Virus record (IMG/VR): IMGVR_UViG_3300043395_001598
Location: 1 to 27,478 of that record
Strand: one strand, 5' to 3'
DNA: 27,478 nucleotides
DNA from: a virus
In this document: in pieces, positions 4,904 through 14,135 of the stretch
Numbering within the stretch: position 1 is the stretch's first letter
Layout of the letters: each line of letters opens with the position of its first letter
Made by a program: the position numbers and the translations under genes
The notes under the pieces: model-generated
What the model was told of the DNA's origin: nothing
What the model saw: only the letters and a program-made list of their open reading frames with translations
Databases searched by the model: none

Positions 4904-5164
4904 ATGCCAAAACTCACCACCATCCCAGCCGCAGCCCCAGTGCAGCTATGGCCGGTCGAAATGGCTCCCAGCGCTCAGCTGATGGCTGACATACGTGCCG
5001 GGATCCGCAAGCTCGATGCCCTAGGAGCGACAGGCCACGCTGACTACTGGGTGCAGGAGCTGCACCGCATCGATGGCCACCCAATCGAGCGCCGGTGGAC
5101 GGCTGGCGCACTGCGGCTAATCGAGCGAGACGTGATCCAGGCCGAGCTTGAGACCGGGGCCTGA
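4904..5164 (+). CDS. Hypothetical early protein (86 aa)
   Basis: No family recognised. A Pro/Ala-rich N-terminus (about residues 1-25) precedes a mainly helical body: SAQLMADIRAGIRKLDALG, HADYWVQELHRIDGH and AGALRLIERDVIQAELETG. The start is ATG, shortly after the 71-bp leader repeat. The stop lies inside the beginning of the second repeat copy, so this gene plus leader looks like one unit of a repeated gene-leader design. Soluble, presumably early expressed. Confidence 0.65.
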   Translation: MPKLTTIPAAAPVQLWPVEMAPSAQLMADIRAGIRKLDALGATGHADYWVQELHRIDGHPIERRWTAGALRLIERDVIQAELETGA

Positions 5165-5230
5165 AGCTCCTACTGAGGCCCTACGGGGTCTCTCTAGGGG
5201 CCTCACCTGCTCCCAACCGTGCACCTTGTA
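5160..5230 (+). repeat. 71-bp leader repeat, copy B (hairpin plus GTGCACCTTGTA)
   Basis: Second copy of the 4822-4892 element. Outer stem GCTCCTA (5166-5172) with TAGGGGC (5195-5201, one T-G pair). Inner stem GAGGCCC (5175-5181) with GGGTCTC (5186-5192). Three of the four differences from copy A fall in stem arms and keep pairing, which supports a structured RNA. Confidence 0.8.
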
Positions 5231-5236
5231 CTCACG

Positions 5237-5497
5237 ATGAAAGCCCTTTTTGGATCACTCCTGGCCCTTGGCTGCGCAGCCTTGGTGCTCGGTGAGCGCC
5301 CAGACAAAACGCCAATCCGCTCCGCGGCTCCTGTTGCTCCTGTGTCAACAGTGAGCTATCAACCGGCCCTACAGGGCTTCGCTGATGAAGTGGCCGCTAG
5401 TGATGCGATTGTGCAAGCCAACCATCAGGCCCGGCAGTTTGAGCAGCTTCAACGCGAAGTGCGGCAGCTGGAATCACGTCTTGAGATCGGTTACTAA
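5237..5497 (+). CDS. Small exported protein with signal peptide and C-terminal coiled coil (86 aa)
   Basis: The start MKALFGSLLALGCAALVLGE has a lysine followed by a long hydrophobic core, so it is a signal peptide or membrane anchor. A near-lipobox (ALGC) is present but not ideal. The middle is Pro/Ala/Val-rich, and the end (QANHQARQFEQLQREVRQLESRL, in heptads) forms a short coiled coil. I chose ATG 5237 over the GTG at 5219, which lies within the leader repeat. It may act at the cell envelope, for example in superinfection exclusion. That is inference from topology only. Confidence 0.65.
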   Translation: MKALFGSLLALGCAALVLGERPDKTPIRSAAPVAPVSTVSYQPALQGFADEVAASDAIVQANHQARQFEQLQREVRQLESRLEIGY

Positions 5498-5499
5498 TC

Positions 5500-5670
5500 A
5501 TGGACACTGAAACCCTGATTGCGCACCACGTGGAGGCCTTGATTGGCCTCGGTTGGCGGTGGGAAGGCCGCGGCCTGATACCCACATGCCGGACTGCTCA
5601 ACTGTTGACAGCGGAGCAACGTAAAAAGCTGTCACAAGAGCTCATCAATCAACCACGCGAGGCAGCATGA
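5500..5670 (+). CDS. Hypothetical small protein (56 aa)
   Basis: The reading frame starts ATG 5500, just after the preceding stop, and encodes MDTETLIAHHVEALIGLGWR, then WEGRGLIPTCRTAQLLTAEQ, ending KLSQELINQPREAA. Mainly helical and soluble. Its stop overlaps the next ATG (ATGA at 5667-5670), a typical translational coupling. Together with the preceding gene it fits an operon without extra leader elements. No family recognised. Confidence 0.55.
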   Translation: MDTETLIAHHVEALIGLGWRWEGRGLIPTCRTAQLLTAEQRKKLSQELINQPREAA

Positions 5671-5888
5671 AGTATTCATTGCTGGGATACGTTATTGGCT
5701 CCATTGCTGCGTTGTATTCAGTGCAGCTCGGAGACCCACAATTTGTAACCAAAACGCACCTTGAAACCATTTCGCAACATCTGGCTCCCAGTGGACTTTT
5801 ATCTGGGCATCAGCAGCAACCATCGGCGGCTGCTAGAGGTACCCACTGTTACGGTTCAATCTGCCAGGACGTGGGCAGTAAGGATTGA
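5667..5888 (+). CDS. Hypothetical small protein with N-terminal membrane segment (73 aa)
   Basis: Starts at the ATGA overlap with the preceding gene. The N-terminus MKYSLLGYVIGSIAALYSVQ is a likely signal anchor, and the rest is polar with two cysteines near the end (THCYGSICQDVG). A second frame (5761-5946, TTG start) overlaps the 3' half and also looks protein-like (hydrophobic patch TLLFSVCIIVDF), so a frameshift or a pair of overlapping genes is possible. No family recognised. Confidence 0.45.
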   Translation: MKYSLLGYVIGSIAALYSVQLGDPQFVTKTHLETISQHLAPSGLLSGHQQQPSAAARGTHCYGSICQDVGSKD

Positions 5889-6040
5889 GTGGACGTTGCT
5901 ATTCAGCGTGTGCATCATCGTCGATTTTTCGCCGGTGAAGTTGTAACGCACTCTGCAGCAGTCTGCGGCAAATCAGCCACTTAAACCCTGTCAATGATTC
6001 AACCGAAACTGTTGACCTTGGATTAGCTTTGCAGTGGTGA

Positions 6041-7387
6041 GTGAACCTTGCAATGTCCGATCTATCCAAGCTCCACGCGGGGCTTCTCTTCTGTCTCCAT
6101 CAGCACCCCCAGTTGCGCATTAGCCAACTTCACATGCTGTTGACCATTGCCCTCAAGCCTGGCCAAACCCAGACCGAGCTGGCGATGGCCTGCGATCTGA
6201 CCCTCTCCGCCGTCTCTCGGGCGATGGATGTTCTGGGTAGTTCCGGGAGGCGAGACAAGATCAGCTCTGCCCGTATGGGTTGGGTTGAAACCCGCAGGAA
6301 CCAAGATGACGACCGGATTTTGCAGGTTTATCTAACCAAAAAGGCCACGAGTTTGTATCACTATTGGAGGCAATGGTTTATGGCAGTTCGATTCTGCCCA
6401 GATCGGAACAGGTGGAGAGTGCAGTTCAAGCGTGATGGAAAGCGCATCAGCAGGGACTTCCTCACCGAACGGGAGGCCGCGGAGTGGGAAGCGGGGGCTA
6501 ACCCAAAGGATCCCAGCCCCGTCCTGGAGGTGCGCCAACAGCGCCACCAAGAGGGCACCCTGGGCGACATGGTGCGGGTCTGCGCCAGTGCTGATTGGGC
6601 CGGTAAGGATCCCAGCCAGCTGGAGAACGCAGCCCGTCTGGCCAAGCTGATGGGACCCCGTACTCACGTCAGCGAGTTGACCATGCGGCGGCTGGATGAC
6701 CTAGTGGAGGACCTGCGGGCCAGTGGCCTCAGCAACACCACCATTAAGAAGTACATCAGCGCTGTCAGCGTGATGTTGAAGCGGGCCTGCCGTCTTGGGT
6801 ACATCGCGGCCATGCCGTTGATGCCCGAGAAGCGCACCCTCAAATCACCAGAGCCCCGTGATTTGGTGATCCGTGATGAGTGGATGGCTGCCCTATTGGA
6901 TGCCCTGGAGCGCAAGGAGAACCGGCTCTCGCTGGGCCTCACCATTTTTCTGCGTGAGATGGGTTGCCGTGTTGGTGAAGCTCTTGACCTGACATGGGAC
7001 CGGATTGACCTGGCCAAAGGCGAGGTTCAGTTCGTCAAAACCAAGGGCGCCATGCCCCGCAGGCTGCCACTCACCAAGCCTGCCCTTGGTGTGGTCAAAA
7101 CCATGCAGGCGCGGGGCCTGGAGACGGTGTTCCCGATCCATTACGGCACGTTCCTGTTGCACTACAGCGATGCCAAACATGAGGCCTGCGATCGGCTGGG
7201 CCTCGGCCCCACGGTCCGCAAGGAATGGGTCATCCATACCCTGCGGCACACCCGGATCACGGAGTTAGCTGCCAATGGCCACGCTGCTCCGGCCATTCAG
7301 GCATGGGCTGGGCACAAGTCGCTGTCAGTGACGCAGCGGTACATTCACGCTGCTGGTATCAACTTGGCATCCCTGGCACACTGTTGA
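6041..7387 (+). CDS. int: MarR-like domain fused in frame to tyrosine-recombinase integrase (448 aa)
   Basis: Site-specific recombinase for insertion into and excision from the host chromosome. Residues about 5-110 are a MarR-type winged helix: GQTQTELAMACDLTLSAVSR is the helix-turn-helix and RRNQDDDRILQVYLT the wing. From 114 on it is a complete integrase: an arm-binding strand domain (about 114-150), a core-binding helical domain (about 170-265) and a catalytic domain with Arg310, Lys333 or Lys335, His399, Arg402, His425 and nucleophile Tyr434 (HTLRHT and RYIH boxes). A strong GGAGG at 6366-6370 lies 9 nt before Met114 (ATG 6380), so a separate 335-aa integrase could also be made. The outer start may be GTG 6041 or ATG 6053. 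It stands directly before the candidate attP and the RNA polymerase, as in integrase-bearing cyanopodoviruses. Confidence 0.92.
   Translation: MNLAMSDLSKLHAGLLFCLHQHPQLRISQLHMLLTIALKPGQTQTELAMACDLTLSAVSRAMDVLGSSGRRDKISSARMGWVETRRNQDDDRILQVYLTKKATSLYHYWRQWFMAVRFCPDRNRWRVQFKRDGKRISRDFLTEREAAEWEAGANPKDPSPVLEVRQQRHQEGTLGDMVRVCASADWAGKDPSQLENAARLAKLMGPRTHVSELTMRRLDDLVEDLRASGLSNTTIKKYISAVSVMLKRACRLGYIAAMPLMPEKRTLKSPEPRDLVIRDEWMAALLDALERKENRLSLGLTIFLREMGCRVGEALDLTWDRIDLAKGEVQFVKTKGAMPRRLPLTKPALGVVKTMQARGLETVFPIHYGTFLLHYSDAKHEACDRLGLGPTVRKEWVIHTLRHTRITELAANGHAAPAIQAWAGHKSLSVTQRYIHAAGINLASLAHC
6042..6053 (+). promoter_or_regulatory. ACCTTGYA leader motif before the MarR-integrase gene
   Basis: TGAACCTTGCAA runs directly into ATG 6053, exactly as in the minus-strand copy at 2479-2468. 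No clear hairpin precedes this copy. A TTGACC box is at 6012-6017, but the matching -10 is poor. Confidence 0.45.
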
Positions 7388-7392
7388 ACGCT

Positions 7393-7438
7393 GTCTCATG
7401 TTTGAGACGCATGGTGCATTGTGCACCAGGGTGCACCA
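7393..7438. repeat. Inverted and direct repeats beside attP, candidate integrase arm sites
   Basis: A 6-bp hairpin GTCTCA-TGTT-TGAGAC lies at 7393-7408. It is followed by TGGTGCA (7412-7418), its inverse TGCACCA (7422-7428), and TGCACCA again (7432-7438). Three copies of one heptamer within 30 bp, between the integrase stop and the attP core, fit protein-binding arm sites. Confidence 0.5.
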
Positions 7439-7473
7439 ACAAAACCCTGAGGGGGTCTAGCAATCTGGCGAAT

Positions 7474-7492
7474 GCAGCGGACTCATAATCCG
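7474..7492. other. Candidate attP core resembling a CAU-anticodon tRNA arm
   Basis: GCAGCGGACTCATAATCCG has the form of a tRNA anticodon arm: stem CGGA/TCCG around the loop CTCATAA with anticodon CAT. This matches elongator tRNA-Met or tRNA-Ile2. No acceptor or T arm fits around it, so it is not a tRNA gene. Its position just 3' of the integrase gene is where cyanopodovirus attP sites are known. Integration at a host tRNA gene would put integrase and RNA polymerase at opposite prophage ends. Confidence 0.6.
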
Positions 7493-7555: not shown

Positions 7556-9943
7556 ATGCCCGATCAACAGTTGAACGCCGTCAAGGAGCCCCTGCACCAA
7601 CAGCTGGAGCTGGAATCCTGGTGCAGAAGTACAGGTGCAGACCGCATCCTTTCCACCAAGTGGGAGAAGGGTGCCAGCGGCACATTGACTCAACGCTTGG
7701 CCACTCTTTACCTGGAAAAAGTGCTGGAGATCTATGACAAATCTCACCGCACACCAGGCCGACAACAACACATCTGGGCGTTGATGAGTGACAAGAAAAG
7801 TGTTATTCATGTTGCCCTTGAAACCCTGGCCTATGTCATAGGCAACCTCAACGAGGAACGCCCCTTCACACAGCTCGCCACAACCATCGGTAAACGGGCT
7901 GAATACGTGCTCTGGCTACAGCACCCCCAATGGGGCAAATCCATGCACCTACAGGGCCTCAAGCTGGCCACCAACAACGACCTGAACATGGGCTTGGTGC
8001 GTAAGCGCCTCATCGATCAGGGCTTCCGTAAGGCCGCGGCCTATCACCCCCTCAAGCACGTTGAGCGTGCTGCCCTCGGTGCCTTCTTTATCGAGTGCAT
8101 TGCCGAGAGCACCAAGATGGTGGAGGTGGTGATGAAAACGGTGCACCGCAAGCGGCACCGCTGGGTTCGCTACACACCCCTCTACTGGCAGTTCCTGGAC
8201 CGGTGGAAGGATGCCGTGACCATGTTCCGGCCCCTCTACATGCCGATGATGGTGCCGCCCAGGGAGTGGACTGGGCACACCGGTGGTGGGTACCTGAGCA
8301 TCGCCACCCAGGTCAGCCCGGTGGATTGGGCACGCTGGCCTGAGGTGAGCAAGCGGATGCAACCCTGCGTTCTGGACAGCATCAACCTGCTGCAGGACCA
8401 GCCCTATCAGATCGATGAAATTCAGATGGGGCTGCTCGAAGCCTGTTGGAACTTGGGCCACCAGGTGGGCAGCGTCCCATCCAGACATCGCATTCCGGAA
8501 CCGGTTGACAATGAGTACAAGGTGAAGGGCCTGGGTCCCAGCGCCTACTGGAAAGCGGTCTGGAAATGGAAGTCAGATCAGCGCCGTGACGGTGAACGCA
8601 GCCGAATCGTGAACACCCTGGTTGCACACCGCCGCCTCGGTGATGCCCGGCCCCTCTGGTTTGTCCATCACATGGATCACCGTGGCCGGGTGTACAGCCG
8701 TGGATCACAGCTCAACATCCAAGGTCCCGATCACCAGCGATCGTTGATGCAGTTCGATGAACGCAGCCCGATCAAGGGGCATGAACGGGAGTTTGCCTGG
8801 AGTCTGGGCGGTGCACTGGGCCTCGCGCCGGATCCCAAAGAACGGGAGCGGTACCTGGACACGATGAGCGCAGCCATCGTCAAGGCGGGCAACGATCCCC
8901 TCGGCAGCCTTGCCTACTGGGCTGACGTGAAGGAACCGTGGCGGTTCATCCAGCTGTGCCGTGACTGGGCCAGCTACATCGAGAACCCTGGATACCAGAG
9001 CGGCACCATCCACTGGTTGGATCAAACCTGCTCCGGCTGGGGACACGTGGCTTGCCTGACCGGTGATGCCCAGCTGGCCCAGTACACCAATGTCACAGGC
9101 CGTGCCTCGGCTGACCTGTACACCGGCCTCGGGAAGCTGGTGGTGGCCCGGTTGAAGTGGATCAACGAGAACGAGGAGATGGATGAGCGCCGCACCAAGG
9201 CTGTGACCTGGTGGTGCAAGCACGTGATCCCCCGTTCGTTGTGGAAGAAGGTGCTGATGCCGATCATCTATGGCCGCAGCTACCTGTCCCTGGCTGACAC
9301 CATCAAGCTGTACTTGAGGGATGAGGTGGAGGACTTCCTCACCGAGGAAGGACTGCGCATTGTGGACCTGGCTCTGGTGTTGGCCACGATCACAACCAAG
9401 GTGGTGAATGAAGCACTGCCCAACGTGCGTGATCTGTCGCGCTGGCTCACCCAGTTGAGCAACATGCAGATCGATGCCGGTCATCGGGCGTACTGGTTCA
9501 CACCCAATGGACTGGCGGTTGAGTGTTATCAGTCCGATAGCAGGCAGGATCAGATCGAGTTAGCCCTCGGCAGGCGCACCATCTCAGTGGGTGTGCGGGA
9601 TGCCACGGGTTGCCCGGTCAATAAGCGGCGCACCAGCCGGAAACTTGTGCCTGATTTTGTGCACAGCATGGATGCTGCATTCCTGCAGCGGTTCGTTGCT
9701 CATTGGGCAACGTATGACCATCCGATTGCAACGGTTCATGACTGTTTTGGCACCACGCTGGAGCACGTCGGAACGCTGCAGTCAGAGCTGAATGATCAGT
9801 GGCATCGGTTCTATTCCGTAGACCACCTGACGAGGCACCAGGGCATGGTTGAGATGGTGCTCGGGAAGGAGGTGCCAGCACCCCCGATTGTGGGGACGCT
9901 GGACCGGAGCAAGGTGGGGGAAAACCCATTCCTCTTCAGTTGA
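7556..9943 (+). CDS. T7-like single-subunit DNA-directed RNA polymerase (795 aa)
   Basis: Transcribes middle and late phage genes from phage promoters. Hallmarks of the family: motif A MDHRGRVYS with catalytic Asp374; LDQTCSGWGH, matching the T7 LDGSCSGIQH segment; motif B KKVLMPIIYG with Lys564 and Tyr572 at the same 8-residue spacing as T7 Lys631 and Tyr639; PDFVHSMDAAFL; and motif C HDCFGTT with catalytic Asp729 (T7 HDSFGT, Cys replacing Ser). It is somewhat shorter than T7 RNA polymerase (883 aa), with the loss mostly before motif A. The C-terminus ends NPFLFS, a relative of the T7 FAFA foot. It stands just after the attP, with TTGACA at 7501 but no good -10. Confidence 0.96.
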   Translation: MPDQQLNAVKEPLHQQLELESWCRSTGADRILSTKWEKGASGTLTQRLATLYLEKVLEIYDKSHRTPGRQQHIWALMSDKKSVIHVALETLAYVIGNLNEERPFTQLATTIGKRAEYVLWLQHPQWGKSMHLQGLKLATNNDLNMGLVRKRLIDQGFRKAAAYHPLKHVERAALGAFFIECIAESTKMVEVVMKTVHRKRHRWVRYTPLYWQFLDRWKDAVTMFRPLYMPMMVPPREWTGHTGGGYLSIATQVSPVDWARWPEVSKRMQPCVLDSINLLQDQPYQIDEIQMGLLEACWNLGHQVGSVPSRHRIPEPVDNEYKVKGLGPSAYWKAVWKWKSDQRRDGERSRIVNTLVAHRRLGDARPLWFVHHMDHRGRVYSRGSQLNIQGPDHQRSLMQFDERSPIKGHEREFAWSLGGALGLAPDPKERERYLDTMSAAIVKAGNDPLGSLAYWADVKEPWRFIQLCRDWASYIENPGYQSGTIHWLDQTCSGWGHVACLTGDAQLAQYTNVTGRASADLYTGLGKLVVARLKWINENEEMDERRTKAVTWWCKHVIPRSLWKKVLMPIIYGRSYLSLADTIKLYLRDEVEDFLTEEGLRIVDLALVLATITTKVVNEALPNVRDLSRWLTQLSNMQIDAGHRAYWFTPNGLAVECYQSDSRQDQIELALGRRTISVGVRDATGCPVNKRRTSRKLVPDFVHSMDAAFLQRFVAHWATYDHPIATVHDCFGTTLEHVGTLQSELNDQWHRFYSVDHLTRHQGMVEMVLGKEVPAPPIVGTLDRSKVGENPFLFS

Positions 9944-11186: not shown

Positions 11187-12694
11187 GCCTGCTTGATGAG
11201 TTCAAATCCAAGAACATTAGGACTGACGCGCCAGCCGCCAAGTCGTCCCTGATCACATCAACTCCATTTATCACCCCGGTTCGTGGCATCACTGAGCGAA
11301 CAACTCGCTTGTATGACTACGGCGTTGGCAAGTACAGGCAGGAGGGGGCGCATGTCGCCAACCTCCGGGACAGCAACGGCCTGGTGGTTGCCCAGAAGAT
11401 CCGTTATGGCGACAAGAAGTTTGCCGTCATTGGAGAGGGTGACCAAGACAAGCTCCAGATGTTTGGCCAGCACATTGGAAGCGAAGGCACCTTGGTCATC
11501 ACCGAGGGTGAGCTTGATGCCATGTCGGTGCATGAGGCACTCACCCTCCGCCGCATCAAAGGGAACTATGTAGTTGTTTCACTGATCAATGGGGTGGGCT
11601 CGGCCAAGAAGAACACCACAGCACAACTGTCCTGGATCCTCGGGTTCAAGCGGGTGGTGGTGTTCATGGACATGGATGACCCAGGCCGCAAGGCTGCTGC
11701 CACTATTGCCGAGCTGGTTGGCCCTACTGCTGCTGTGGTCGGTGCCTTCCCTTACAAGGACGCCAATGAAGCATGGCAAGCCCATGACCACCAGGCAATT
11801 CTCGATGCCGTCAACAACGCCAAGATCCAGCGTCCTGACGCCATCATCCACGCGCCCGATCTCCTGGAGAGGGTGCTCAAGCCAGAGCGCAGGCAGGGTC
11901 TGCCATTTCCATGGAAAGGCTGGAACAAGGTCACCGAGGGGATGAAGCCCGGCCAGCTGATCATGATCAGTGGTGGCACCGGGATTGGGAAATCCCTGTT
12001 CACCCGCAGCATCGCGCTGGATCTCTGCCGCAACGGCACCAACGTGGCGTACATCGGCCTGGAGGAGAGCTGCGAAACCAGCCTGGAGCGGATGCTGTCA
12101 GAGCAGATGCAAACCCCGCTCTACCGGGATACCCCGGAGCAACGTGCACTGCGCGATCCGGAGGAGATCAAGGCCGCACTCGATCAGTTTGCCGGCCACC
12201 TGTATCTGTTGGATAAGTTCGGCAGCGATGACTTCGACTCTTTTGTTGCCACCGTTAAACATTACGTGCTGGCTGAGCAATGCCCGGTCATTGTCCTAGA
12301 TCACTTCTCATTGTTGGCTGATGGTATTTCCCTTGCTACTGATCAGCGGCGGGCTATTGATCGTTGCATCAAAGATCTCAAGACGCTCTGTGTTGAACTC
12401 AACTTCACCATGCTCGTCGTCTGCCACCTATCGAGATCGACAGGCATTGGCAAACCGCATGAAGAAGGAGGCGAGCCCACACTTGCCGAACTACGAGGAT
12501 CTCATTCCCTAGCGCAGATCCCCGACACGATCGTGATGCTGGTTCGCAACCCTAGGGCAGAGGATTCACGCGAGGCTAACACTACTCATTGCTGGATCAA
12601 AAAGAACCGCGTGACTGGGGTGCTTGGTGAGATGTCCAAGCTTGAGTATCACCCAAGGCTTTGTGTTTTCACCGAAACAGAGGTGGCTGTATGA
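11033..12694 (+). CDS. Primase-helicase, T7 gp4-like (553 aa)
   Basis: Makes RNA primers and unwinds the fork. An N-terminal zinc ribbon has Cys11, Cys16, Cys32 and Cys35. The TOPRIM domain has EGELD (158-162) and DMDDPGR (213-219). The RecA-like helicase domain has Walker A GGTGIGKS (314-321), a Walker B region CPVIVLDHFSLL and LVVCHLSR, as in T7 gp4. The length is close to the 566 aa of T7. The first 51 codons overlap the gp3-like gene by 154 nt. Met51 (ATG 11183) lies directly after the zinc ribbon and overlaps the gp3 stop as ATGA, so a short form like T7 gp4B is likely. It overlaps the next gene by ATGA as well. Confidence 0.95.
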   Translation: MAERCTSHLPCPGPECESTDAATQYPDGSVFCFSCQQRYTADGKPWNNRSMSLLDEFKSKNIRTDAPAAKSSLITSTPFITPVRGITERTTRLYDYGVGKYRQEGAHVANLRDSNGLVVAQKIRYGDKKFAVIGEGDQDKLQMFGQHIGSEGTLVITEGELDAMSVHEALTLRRIKGNYVVVSLINGVGSAKKNTTAQLSWILGFKRVVVFMDMDDPGRKAAATIAELVGPTAAVVGAFPYKDANEAWQAHDHQAILDAVNNAKIQRPDAIIHAPDLLERVLKPERRQGLPFPWKGWNKVTEGMKPGQLIMISGGTGIGKSLFTRSIALDLCRNGTNVAYIGLEESCETSLERMLSEQMQTPLYRDTPEQRALRDPEEIKAALDQFAGHLYLLDKFGSDDFDSFVATVKHYVLAEQCPVIVLDHFSLLADGISLATDQRRAIDRCIKDLKTLCVELNFTMLVVCHLSRSTGIGKPHEEGGEPTLAELRGSHSLAQIPDTIVMLVRNPRAEDSREANTTHCWIKKNRVTGVLGEMSKLEYHPRLCVFTETEVAV

Positions 12695-13194
12695 CCAGAA
12701 TAGTTTCCACTACGTGCTCGCAATGTGGCCTTGCAAAAACCAGCTACACCCGACCATCCGATGGCCGGGTTGAGTGGAGATGCTATCCGTGCCACAACGA
12801 AAAGATGAGGGCGCTTTACGCCTCTTCTCCAGAGCGCCGAGCAAGCGTGGCTGCAGCAAGAAAGCGAAGACGCGCCATCCCTGAGAAACGAGCCCTGGAA
12901 TCCAGGCAATTCAAGGAGGCTCACCTTCGCCGCAGGTTTGGTATTGGGCTGAAAGACTACGAGGCATTGCTTGAAAAGCAGGGAGGCAAGTGCGCTGTTT
13001 GCAGTAGCACCAACGCAAAGGCGCCGAAAGGTGGCAGTGCCTTCCATGTAGACCACTGCCATCAAACGGGAAACATCCGCGGCTTGCTTTGCTTTGACTG
13101 CAACAGCGGGATAGGGAAACTAGGCGACAACCTTGAGGGCCTCATGCGGGCGGTCCGCTACTTAGAGGCCATTGAAAACCACGCTGCCTTCTAG
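12691..13194 (+). CDS. Endonuclease VII-like HNH nuclease (167 aa)
   Basis: The C-terminal half has the recombination endonuclease VII signature: CAVC, then HVDHCH (the His-Asp-His catalytic core) and CFDCN. The two Cys pairs bind structural zinc. The N-terminus has a second probable zinc site (CSQCG and CYPCHN) and a basic helical linker rich in Arg/Ala (VAAARKRRRAIPEKRAL). Start ATG 12691 forms an ATGA overlap with the helicase stop; the frame is open upstream to a TTG at 12661. T4 endonuclease VII resolves branched DNA, but many such stand-alone genes are mobile HNH nucleases. It stands where T7-like phages carry DNA polymerase. Confidence 0.85.
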   Translation: MTRIVSTTCSQCGLAKTSYTRPSDGRVEWRCYPCHNEKMRALYASSPERRASVAAARKRRRAIPEKRALESRQFKEAHLRRRFGIGLKDYEALLEKQGGKCAVCSSTNAKAPKGGSAFHVDHCHQTGNIRGLLCFDCNSGIGKLGDNLEGLMRAVRYLEAIENHAAF

Positions 13195-13196
13195 CC

Positions 13197-13457
13197 ATGG
13201 AGTACATCCACCCAGAGTACATTCATCCAAAATACCTGACAACTGAACCGTTGCCCGACGGTTACTACCGAATCTCTGGCCAGTACATCAACGACCTTTA
13301 TGACCATGCCATCCAAAACTTCAACGAACAATCCGCCAAGTGGGAAAAAGGGAGCTACCCCTACACCTACGCTCAAGCCTTCTGGAACGGATACGGAGCA
13401 GCCATGGCAGGACTCAGGGATTGCGCAAGACAATTCCCTGTTGATCCGCAGGTGTAG
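13197..13457 (+). CDS. Hypothetical protein (86 aa)
   Basis: Starts with a short internal repeat EYIHPEYIHPKY, then an aromatic-rich helical body (YYRISGQYINDLYDHAIQNF, YTYAQAFWNGYGAAMAGL). No family recognised. ATG lies 2 nt after the HNH stop, so it belongs to the same operon. An overlapping frame (13300 on) reads as protein only in its last 65 codons, which I list as a separate gene. Confidence 0.65.
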   Translation: MEYIHPEYIHPKYLTTEPLPDGYYRISGQYINDLYDHAIQNFNEQSAKWEKGSYPYTYAQAFWNGYGAAMAGLRDCARQFPVDPQV

Positions 13458-13461
13458 TGAC

Positions 13462-13656
13462 GTGTACTGGTTTCCAGATTCGCGCTATGGCCTTAGCCAC
13501 ACTCACCGTATGGCTCAAGTCTTTCTTGAATTGGCCAACGAAATTGAAACGTGGGCACCGGACAAGAGAGAAGCTCCGCTCTGTTATCGGACGGTGCTGG
13601 ATGTCGCTGACCGTTTACGCAGGCACGCCGTTGAACGAAAGCCACTGGATCAGTGA
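13462..13656 (+). CDS. Hypothetical protein, GTG start (64 aa)
   Basis: The sequence after GTG 13462 is YWFPDSRYGLSHTHRMAQVF, then LELANEIETWAPDKREAP and a helix TVLDVADRLRRHAVERK. This end reads like short phage proteins with a leucine-rich helix. The frame is open further upstream, but that part (13300-13461) is Pro/Thr/Ser-rich and shadows the previous gene. AGGTG precedes the GTG at a suitable distance, and the gene begins 4 nt after the previous stop. No function assigned. Confidence 0.5.
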   Translation: MYWFPDSRYGLSHTHRMAQVFLELANEIETWAPDKREAPLCYRTVLDVADRLRRHAVERKPLDQ

Positions 13657-13660
13657 CACG

Positions 13661-13870
13661 GTGGCGCTGCAGTGCTTTGACCGTGATGGTCACCCGCCTG
13701 TGTACGTGGGTTCAATGGGTGATGGAAAGTCTGAAGCGTTCTATGCGCTGGGCGATCTTGCCCATTGGTTTATGGAGATGGGGCTGGACATGCAAGACCC
13801 CATCTGGGATTTCATTGATCAACTAGCAACTCAGGAACTAGCCGATGCCACTGAATCAGATGACGCCTGA
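13661..13870 (+). CDS. Hypothetical acidic protein, GTG start (69 aa)
   Basis: Starts GTG 13661, four bases after the previous stop. The sequence begins (V)ALQCFDRDGHPPVYVGSMG and continues as an amphipathic helix (EAFYALGDLAHWFMEMGLDM) with an acidic C-terminus (ELADATESDDA). The frame extends upstream to a GTG at 13457, but that part is out of place, being the shadow of the preceding gene. No family recognised. It overlaps the next gene by 26 nt. Confidence 0.5.
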   Translation: MALQCFDRDGHPPVYVGSMGDGKSEAFYALGDLAHWFMEMGLDMQDPIWDFIDQLATQELADATESDDA

Positions 13871-14135
13871 TTGCCCCGGTTGTGGGGCATGGGTCACCAA
13901 GGTGATCCTGACCAAGCTTGATGATGAGTGCGAGAACGTCGTGCGTCGCAGGCACTGTGAATACTGTGGCCACCGCTTCTACACCAAGCAGCACCACGAG
14001 GAGCTGGTGGAAGTGAAGTGGGTTAGCGGAAAGAAAGGCAAGGCCACGATCCCAAGGGTGACCAAGGTGTTGCCCACTCCATTCAAGGGCCAGGTGTCTG
14101 AACCGCTGCCCGTCCGGGTGAAGGGGGCGGCATGA
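13845..14135 (+). CDS. Zinc-ribbon protein, possible transcription regulator (96 aa)
   Basis: Residues 10-13 (CPGC) and about 38-41 (CEYC), followed by GHRFYTKQH, form a zinc ribbon of the kind seen in NrdR and transcription factor N-termini. The C-terminal half is basic and Pro/Val-rich. Starts considered are ATG 13845 and ATG 13860 (MTPDCPGCG), both overlapping the preceding gene. The gene ends with an ATGA overlap into the exonuclease gene. It could bind nucleic acid or RNA polymerase. The exact role is unknown. Confidence 0.65.
   Translation: MPLNQMTPDCPGCGAWVTKVILTKLDDECENVVRRRHCEYCGHRFYTKQHHEELVEVKWVSGKKGKATIPRVTKVLPTPFKGQVSEPLPVRVKGAA

Follow-up and report, generated by a model that had tools for sequence, protein, structure and literature searches.

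The question raised by this locus is whether a phage has combined a MarR-type transcriptional regulator and a tyrosine integrase in a single polypeptide, or whether two neighbouring genes only appear as one. The locus lies in a linear stretch of 27,478 bases, positions 1-27,478 of the IMG/VR virus record IMGVR_UViG_3300043395_001598, which was analysed as a whole and is called the window here. Positions 6041-7387 of the plus strand indeed form an open frame of 448 amino acids with no stop between a MarR-like N-terminus and a complete tyrosine integrase, as had been described in the first-pass annotation. We consider it highly probable (roughly 94%) that the locus contains a normal pair of overlapping genes, marR and int, from an integrase-bearing T7-like cyanophage, and that one A missing from 6338-6342, through a real or an artefactual loss, joined the two frames.

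Two domains in one open frame

The marR-like part comprises the N-terminal ~101 codons (6041-6342, plus strand). Residues 1-113 of the window frame matched the MarR profile PF01047 (9.3e-07, above the gathering cut-off when scanned alone), which identifies the winged helix-turn-helix of this family, and the transcriptional regulator profile phrog_9665 (4.5e-11). The closest homologue, from contig L001, is 92% identical over residues 1-103, and its structural model resembles the MarR structures 3bpx and 4zzl (Foldseek E down to 5e-05). Over codons 1-101, dN/dS was 0.07 in comparison with L001 and also 0.07 in comparison with the relative L002, indicating that selection on the MarR protein persists or ceased only very recently. 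The conserved start of marR is probably the ATG at 6053 and not the GTG at 6041, because the Ala-Met encoded there is common to more distant relatives. A MarR-like domain had been assigned to residues of about 5-110; the match to the family holds, but true homology ends at around residue 101-103 of the fused frame and the remainder of the assigned segment is out-of-frame marR DNA. In MarR proteins, the C-terminal helix that follows the wing is part of the dimer interface. This helix corresponds to residues 100-114 in the L001 MarR model (KKGQEFVSLLGAM), whereas the window frame has KKATSLYHYWRQWF in their place and retains the homologous sequence only out of frame.

The second part, int (6380-7387, plus strand), encodes a tyrosine integrase of 335 amino acids with its own ATG. 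Residues 114-448 of the fused frame matched the Phage_integrase profile PF00589 (2.3e-19) and the integrase family phrog_1 (1.2e-45), and structural matches include lambda integrase, P2 integrase and XerA. All catalytic residues of tyrosine recombinases (R, K, H-x-x-R, H/W and Y) are present and aligned with those of the relatives, in the motifs CRVGE (Arg), VKTK (Lys in TK), HTLRHT (H-x-x-R-H), GHKS and QRYIH (final Tyr). Both domains of the initial description were thus recovered by profile matches.

The Shine-Dalgarno sequence GGAGG at 6366-6370 (plus strand), inside marR, precedes the ATG of Met114 at 6380 by 9 nt, exactly as had been noted, and a GGAG-like motif occupies the corresponding position in those close relatives whose genes overlap. 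In L001, int is a gene of its own and begins at the corresponding ATG. Judged by this conservation, GGAGG and Met114 are the regular int start and not a relic of a fusion, in agreement with the proposal that the frame contains a ribosome site and a start codon from which the integrase alone could be made.

The junction and its counterparts in relatives

The two frames meet in an A-run at 6338-6342 (plus strand), within Lys-Lys-Gly codons. DNA alignments show AAAAA in the window and AAAAAA in L001, and the relatives keep the marR frame at this position. Consistent with one missing base, the int ATG lies 330 nt from where the marR match starts in the window, compared with 331 nt in the close relatives L001-L005. 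The linker between the domains, residues 102-113 of the fused frame (ATSLYHYWRQWF), consists of marR DNA translated out of frame. When the old marR frame is followed instead, translation and comparison with L001 and L002 reveal the remnant of the marR 3' end at 6343-6435 (plus strand), which encodes GHEFVSLLEAMVYGSSILPRSEQVESAVQA and closes with the TGA at 6433-6435. The conserved marR tail GHEFVSLLEAMVYGSS is still encoded in this frame, and its stop gives a 56-nt overlap with int, a length also found in L001 and L002.

A scan based on alignments gathered 80 loci, and with profiles of both proteins 61 non-identical marR-int pairs were readable, three annotated phages included. None of these 61 pairs forms a fused frame, and marR and int were separate in all that were examined. 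Overlaps of more than 4 nt were found in 21 pairs, with int in the +1 frame in every one of them (21/21), and in the close group int begins inside the 3' end of marR, sharing 17-56 nt with it in the +1 frame, and has a GGAG-type ribosome site within marR. In the nearest contig, L001 (IMGVR 3300032221_000163), whose integrase is 98% identical to that of the window, marR (5001-5396) and int (5341-6348) are two ORFs in different frames. The same layout of two separate ORFs is seen in L002 (87% integrase identity), L003/L004 (64%) and the fosmid phage S39-C11. A pattern scan for further contigs with the junction of the window returned L001 alone, that is, one very close relative.

The first-pass annotation had proposed a fusion of two adjacent genes into a gene for a long regulator-recombinase. 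Adjoining genes are indeed joined in one frame here, and the expectation that marR and int are neighbours in T7-like phages agrees with the identical gene order in the relatives, but the long gene did not withstand the comparison: in related genomes the domains are consistently separated by a stop and a shift of frame, a layout from which the window differs by one base. From these alignments, the regulator-recombinase fusion is very probably a private one-base frameshift in a single contig and not a conserved biological feature. The region is better described as two overlapping, probably translationally coupled genes followed by a likely attP.

Error, recent mutation or fusion protein

Most likely, the fused frame arises from a sequencing or assembly error or from a very recent mutation and does not represent a new kind of protein, and a consensus error and a recent real mutation appear about equally likely as the cause of the missing A. 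We would put at even odds that one base of the A-run was lost in sequencing or assembly and that the true genome has two genes like its relatives. The difference is a single, isolated and uncompensated one of 1 nt in a homopolymer, it is found in one metagenomic contig, and the layout is intact in all relatives; however, five A form only a short homopolymer, short-read errors are uncommon in such runs, and no second error of this type was seen in the contig. Elsewhere, the main genes shared with the L001 contig, among them those for RNA polymerase, primase/helicase, portal, capsid and tail, match it over their full length, indicating that the missing A is an isolated change, and for this reason a generally error-ridden contig was rejected. 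The gap at 6342 is the only isolated single-base gap in the stretch of marR, int and RNA polymerase, in which the others are compensating pairs, and across the nucleotide alignment most of the remaining single-base gaps likewise form nearby compensating pairs in diverged stretches. The absence of disruptions in other main genes also speaks for a real, recent natural frameshift by which the phage, or part of its population, lost functional MarR (truncated or fused) while Int is still produced from its own start. To this explanation we assign slightly less than even odds. A change in marR that is unique to the window, where a mostly conserved proline is replaced (RRNQ instead of RRNP), points in the same direction, whereas the strong purifying selection on the rest of marR and the intact old tail and stop argue against it and imply that any loss of marR must be very recent; moreover, a consensus error explains the difference equally well. 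If the deletion is real, it would most simply be a marR loss or truncation allele in which the C-terminal helix is gone and int keeps being expressed from its own start.

Two further explanations would give the fused frame a function. Programmed frameshifting or transcriptional slippage might produce a MarR-Int fusion throughout the group, the window then representing the slipped form, and both the A-run of the window and the six A of L001 are slippery in principle. However, the run is not conserved across relatives (AAAAAAGG, AAAAAGGG, CCAAAAGG, AAGAAAGG, CCATCTGG), and among 19 close relatives, 16 have a stop codon in the int frame no more than 15 nt (5 codons) before the int ATG, so that slippage at that place could not yield a fusion. 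With no conserved slippery run and with stops just before int in the relatives, a conserved programmed frameshift or slippage was rejected, and we regard it as the least probable of all the explanations. Scarcely more credible is a selected bifunctional protein, in which DNA binding by the MarR domain directs or gates integration and int is also made from the internal start. The frame is open across the junction, and AlphaFold placed a helix over residues 100-113 followed by an arm-binding-like fold, although at low confidence (pLDDT about 60-70 at the junction; pTM 0.43 for the 448-aa frame). On the other hand, the absence of a fusion from all 61 relative pairs led us to reject a conserved fusion, the linker is wrong-frame marR DNA that takes the place of the MarR C-terminal helix, and the old marR frame and stop are still preserved in the window. 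We consider it correspondingly improbable that the five-A allele is real and maintained in the phage population, with a MarR-Int protein of 444-448 amino acids beside the short integrase and the regulator domain targeting or gating the recombinase.

The integration module and its probable host

Seen as an overlapping gene pair, the locus represents a known arrangement, the marR-int-RNA-polymerase module that integrase-bearing T7-like phages carry, cyanophages included. The order marR, int, phage RNA polymerase was found in the window, L001, S39-C11, S-SRP02 and Bylgja; in the window, the module is followed by a T7-type single-subunit RNA polymerase gene at 7556-9943 (plus strand; phrog_414, 2.8e-114; PF00940, 5e-41). 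Pseudomonas phage LUZ100 and T7-like phages of Pelagibacter and Agrobacterium share with the window the succession of a MarR-like gene, a tyrosine integrase and a phage RNA polymerase. In LUZ100, marR and int are transcribed as one operon and MarR was proposed to act in the choice between lysis and lysogeny (PMC10134795). In contrast to the LUZ100-type module, marR and int of the clade described here share 17-56 nt, with int in the +1 frame, and a missing base has turned this overlap into one open frame in the window. The uncultured phage MedDCM-OCT-S39-C11 (Krakvirus, AP013549) resembles the window in the order marR, int, RNA polymerase, with a marR/int overlap of 20 nt in the +1 frame, but differs in having two annotated genes and shares about 40% protein identity. 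No CAT-tRNA-type attP was found in S39-C11 by motif scan.

A putative attP lies 63 nt after int in the window, at 7451-7492 (plus strand). Its 42 nt agree at 41 positions with the 5' half of a Synechococcus and Cyanobium gene for a CAT-anticodon tRNA; int is thus accompanied by a sequence that matches a tRNA gene of the presumed host. The 28-nt core of this site occurs exactly in 39 cyanobacterial genome loci, mainly of Synechococcus and Cyanobium, and ARAGORN predicted tRNA-Met(cat) at 38 of them. The presence of the core in tRNA genes of these genera suggests a picocyanobacterial host. No prophage was found beside the 39 tRNA sites in the stretches of at most 8 kb that were inspected. The half of the CAT-anticodon tRNA is also present in L022, L023, L030-L036 and L039, whereas the close relatives L024, L025, L026, L028 and L029 carry a half of tRNA-Leu(TAA) instead, which suggests that the attachment site was switched within one integrase clade.

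P-SSP7 and S-TIP37, like the window, encode a tyrosine integrase, and immediately downstream of it lies an attP that corresponds to the first half of a host tRNA gene. In S-TIP37, both int and attP are needed for integration, and stable lysogens were not found for T7-like cyanophages (PMC8776855). The attP of the P-SSP7/S-TIP37 system matches tRNA-Leu, as do all attP sites found in a search of 24 T7-like cyanophage genomes, while that of the window matches the CAT-anticodon tRNA; MarR is not mentioned in the study of this system, whereas the window has a marR gene (PMC8776855).

Several repeats lie near the putative attP. An inverted repeat, GTCTCA-TGTT-TGAGAC, follows int at 7393-7408 (plus strand), and the downstream alignment contains related sequences in close relatives. 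Between int and attP, at 7413-7437, there are GGTGCA/TGCACC repeats, for which relatives have a similar layout with different sequence. The inverted repeats at 7393-7408 and 7413-7437 are possibly candidate sites for the regulator or for the arm-binding domain of the integrase. A direct repeat (ACTGTTGAACGCTGTC / ACAGTTGAACGCCGTC) at 7380-7395 and 7567-7582 flanks the putative attP, its copies overlapping the end of int and the start of the RNA polymerase gene, respectively, and counterparts can be recognised in several relatives.

Outside the module, the window, whose region 12694-14132 drew attention in this respect, gave no match to family A DNA polymerases (PF00476), and neither did seven related records taken whole (G001, G004, G005-G007, AP013549 and MW822601), of which some may, like the window, be fragments. 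The window carries genes for a primase/helicase, a ssDNA-binding protein, an endonuclease and an exonuclease, although it lacks a PF00476 match. A small protein with an NrdR-like zinc ribbon (PF22811, 2.1e-09) is encoded in the replication region at 13845-14135.

In its normal form, marR would stop at 6433-6435 and int would be translated in the +1 frame from GGAGG (6366-6370) and the ATG at 6380 inside the marR 3' end, so that one mRNA would give rise to two separate proteins, MarR and Int. Int would then recombine the putative attP (7451-7492) with the CAT-anticodon tRNA gene of a picocyanobacterial host, and MarR presumably controls the polymerase of the phage as well as the choice between lysis and lysogeny.

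Recognizing the fused frame as a one-base frameshift keeps it out of catalogues of new fused regulator-recombinases and supplies a corrected annotation for the marR-int region. If the mutation is real, it would represent a natural loss of the proposed lysogeny regulator, and such a loss of MarR would favour lytic growth or a deregulated RNA polymerase.
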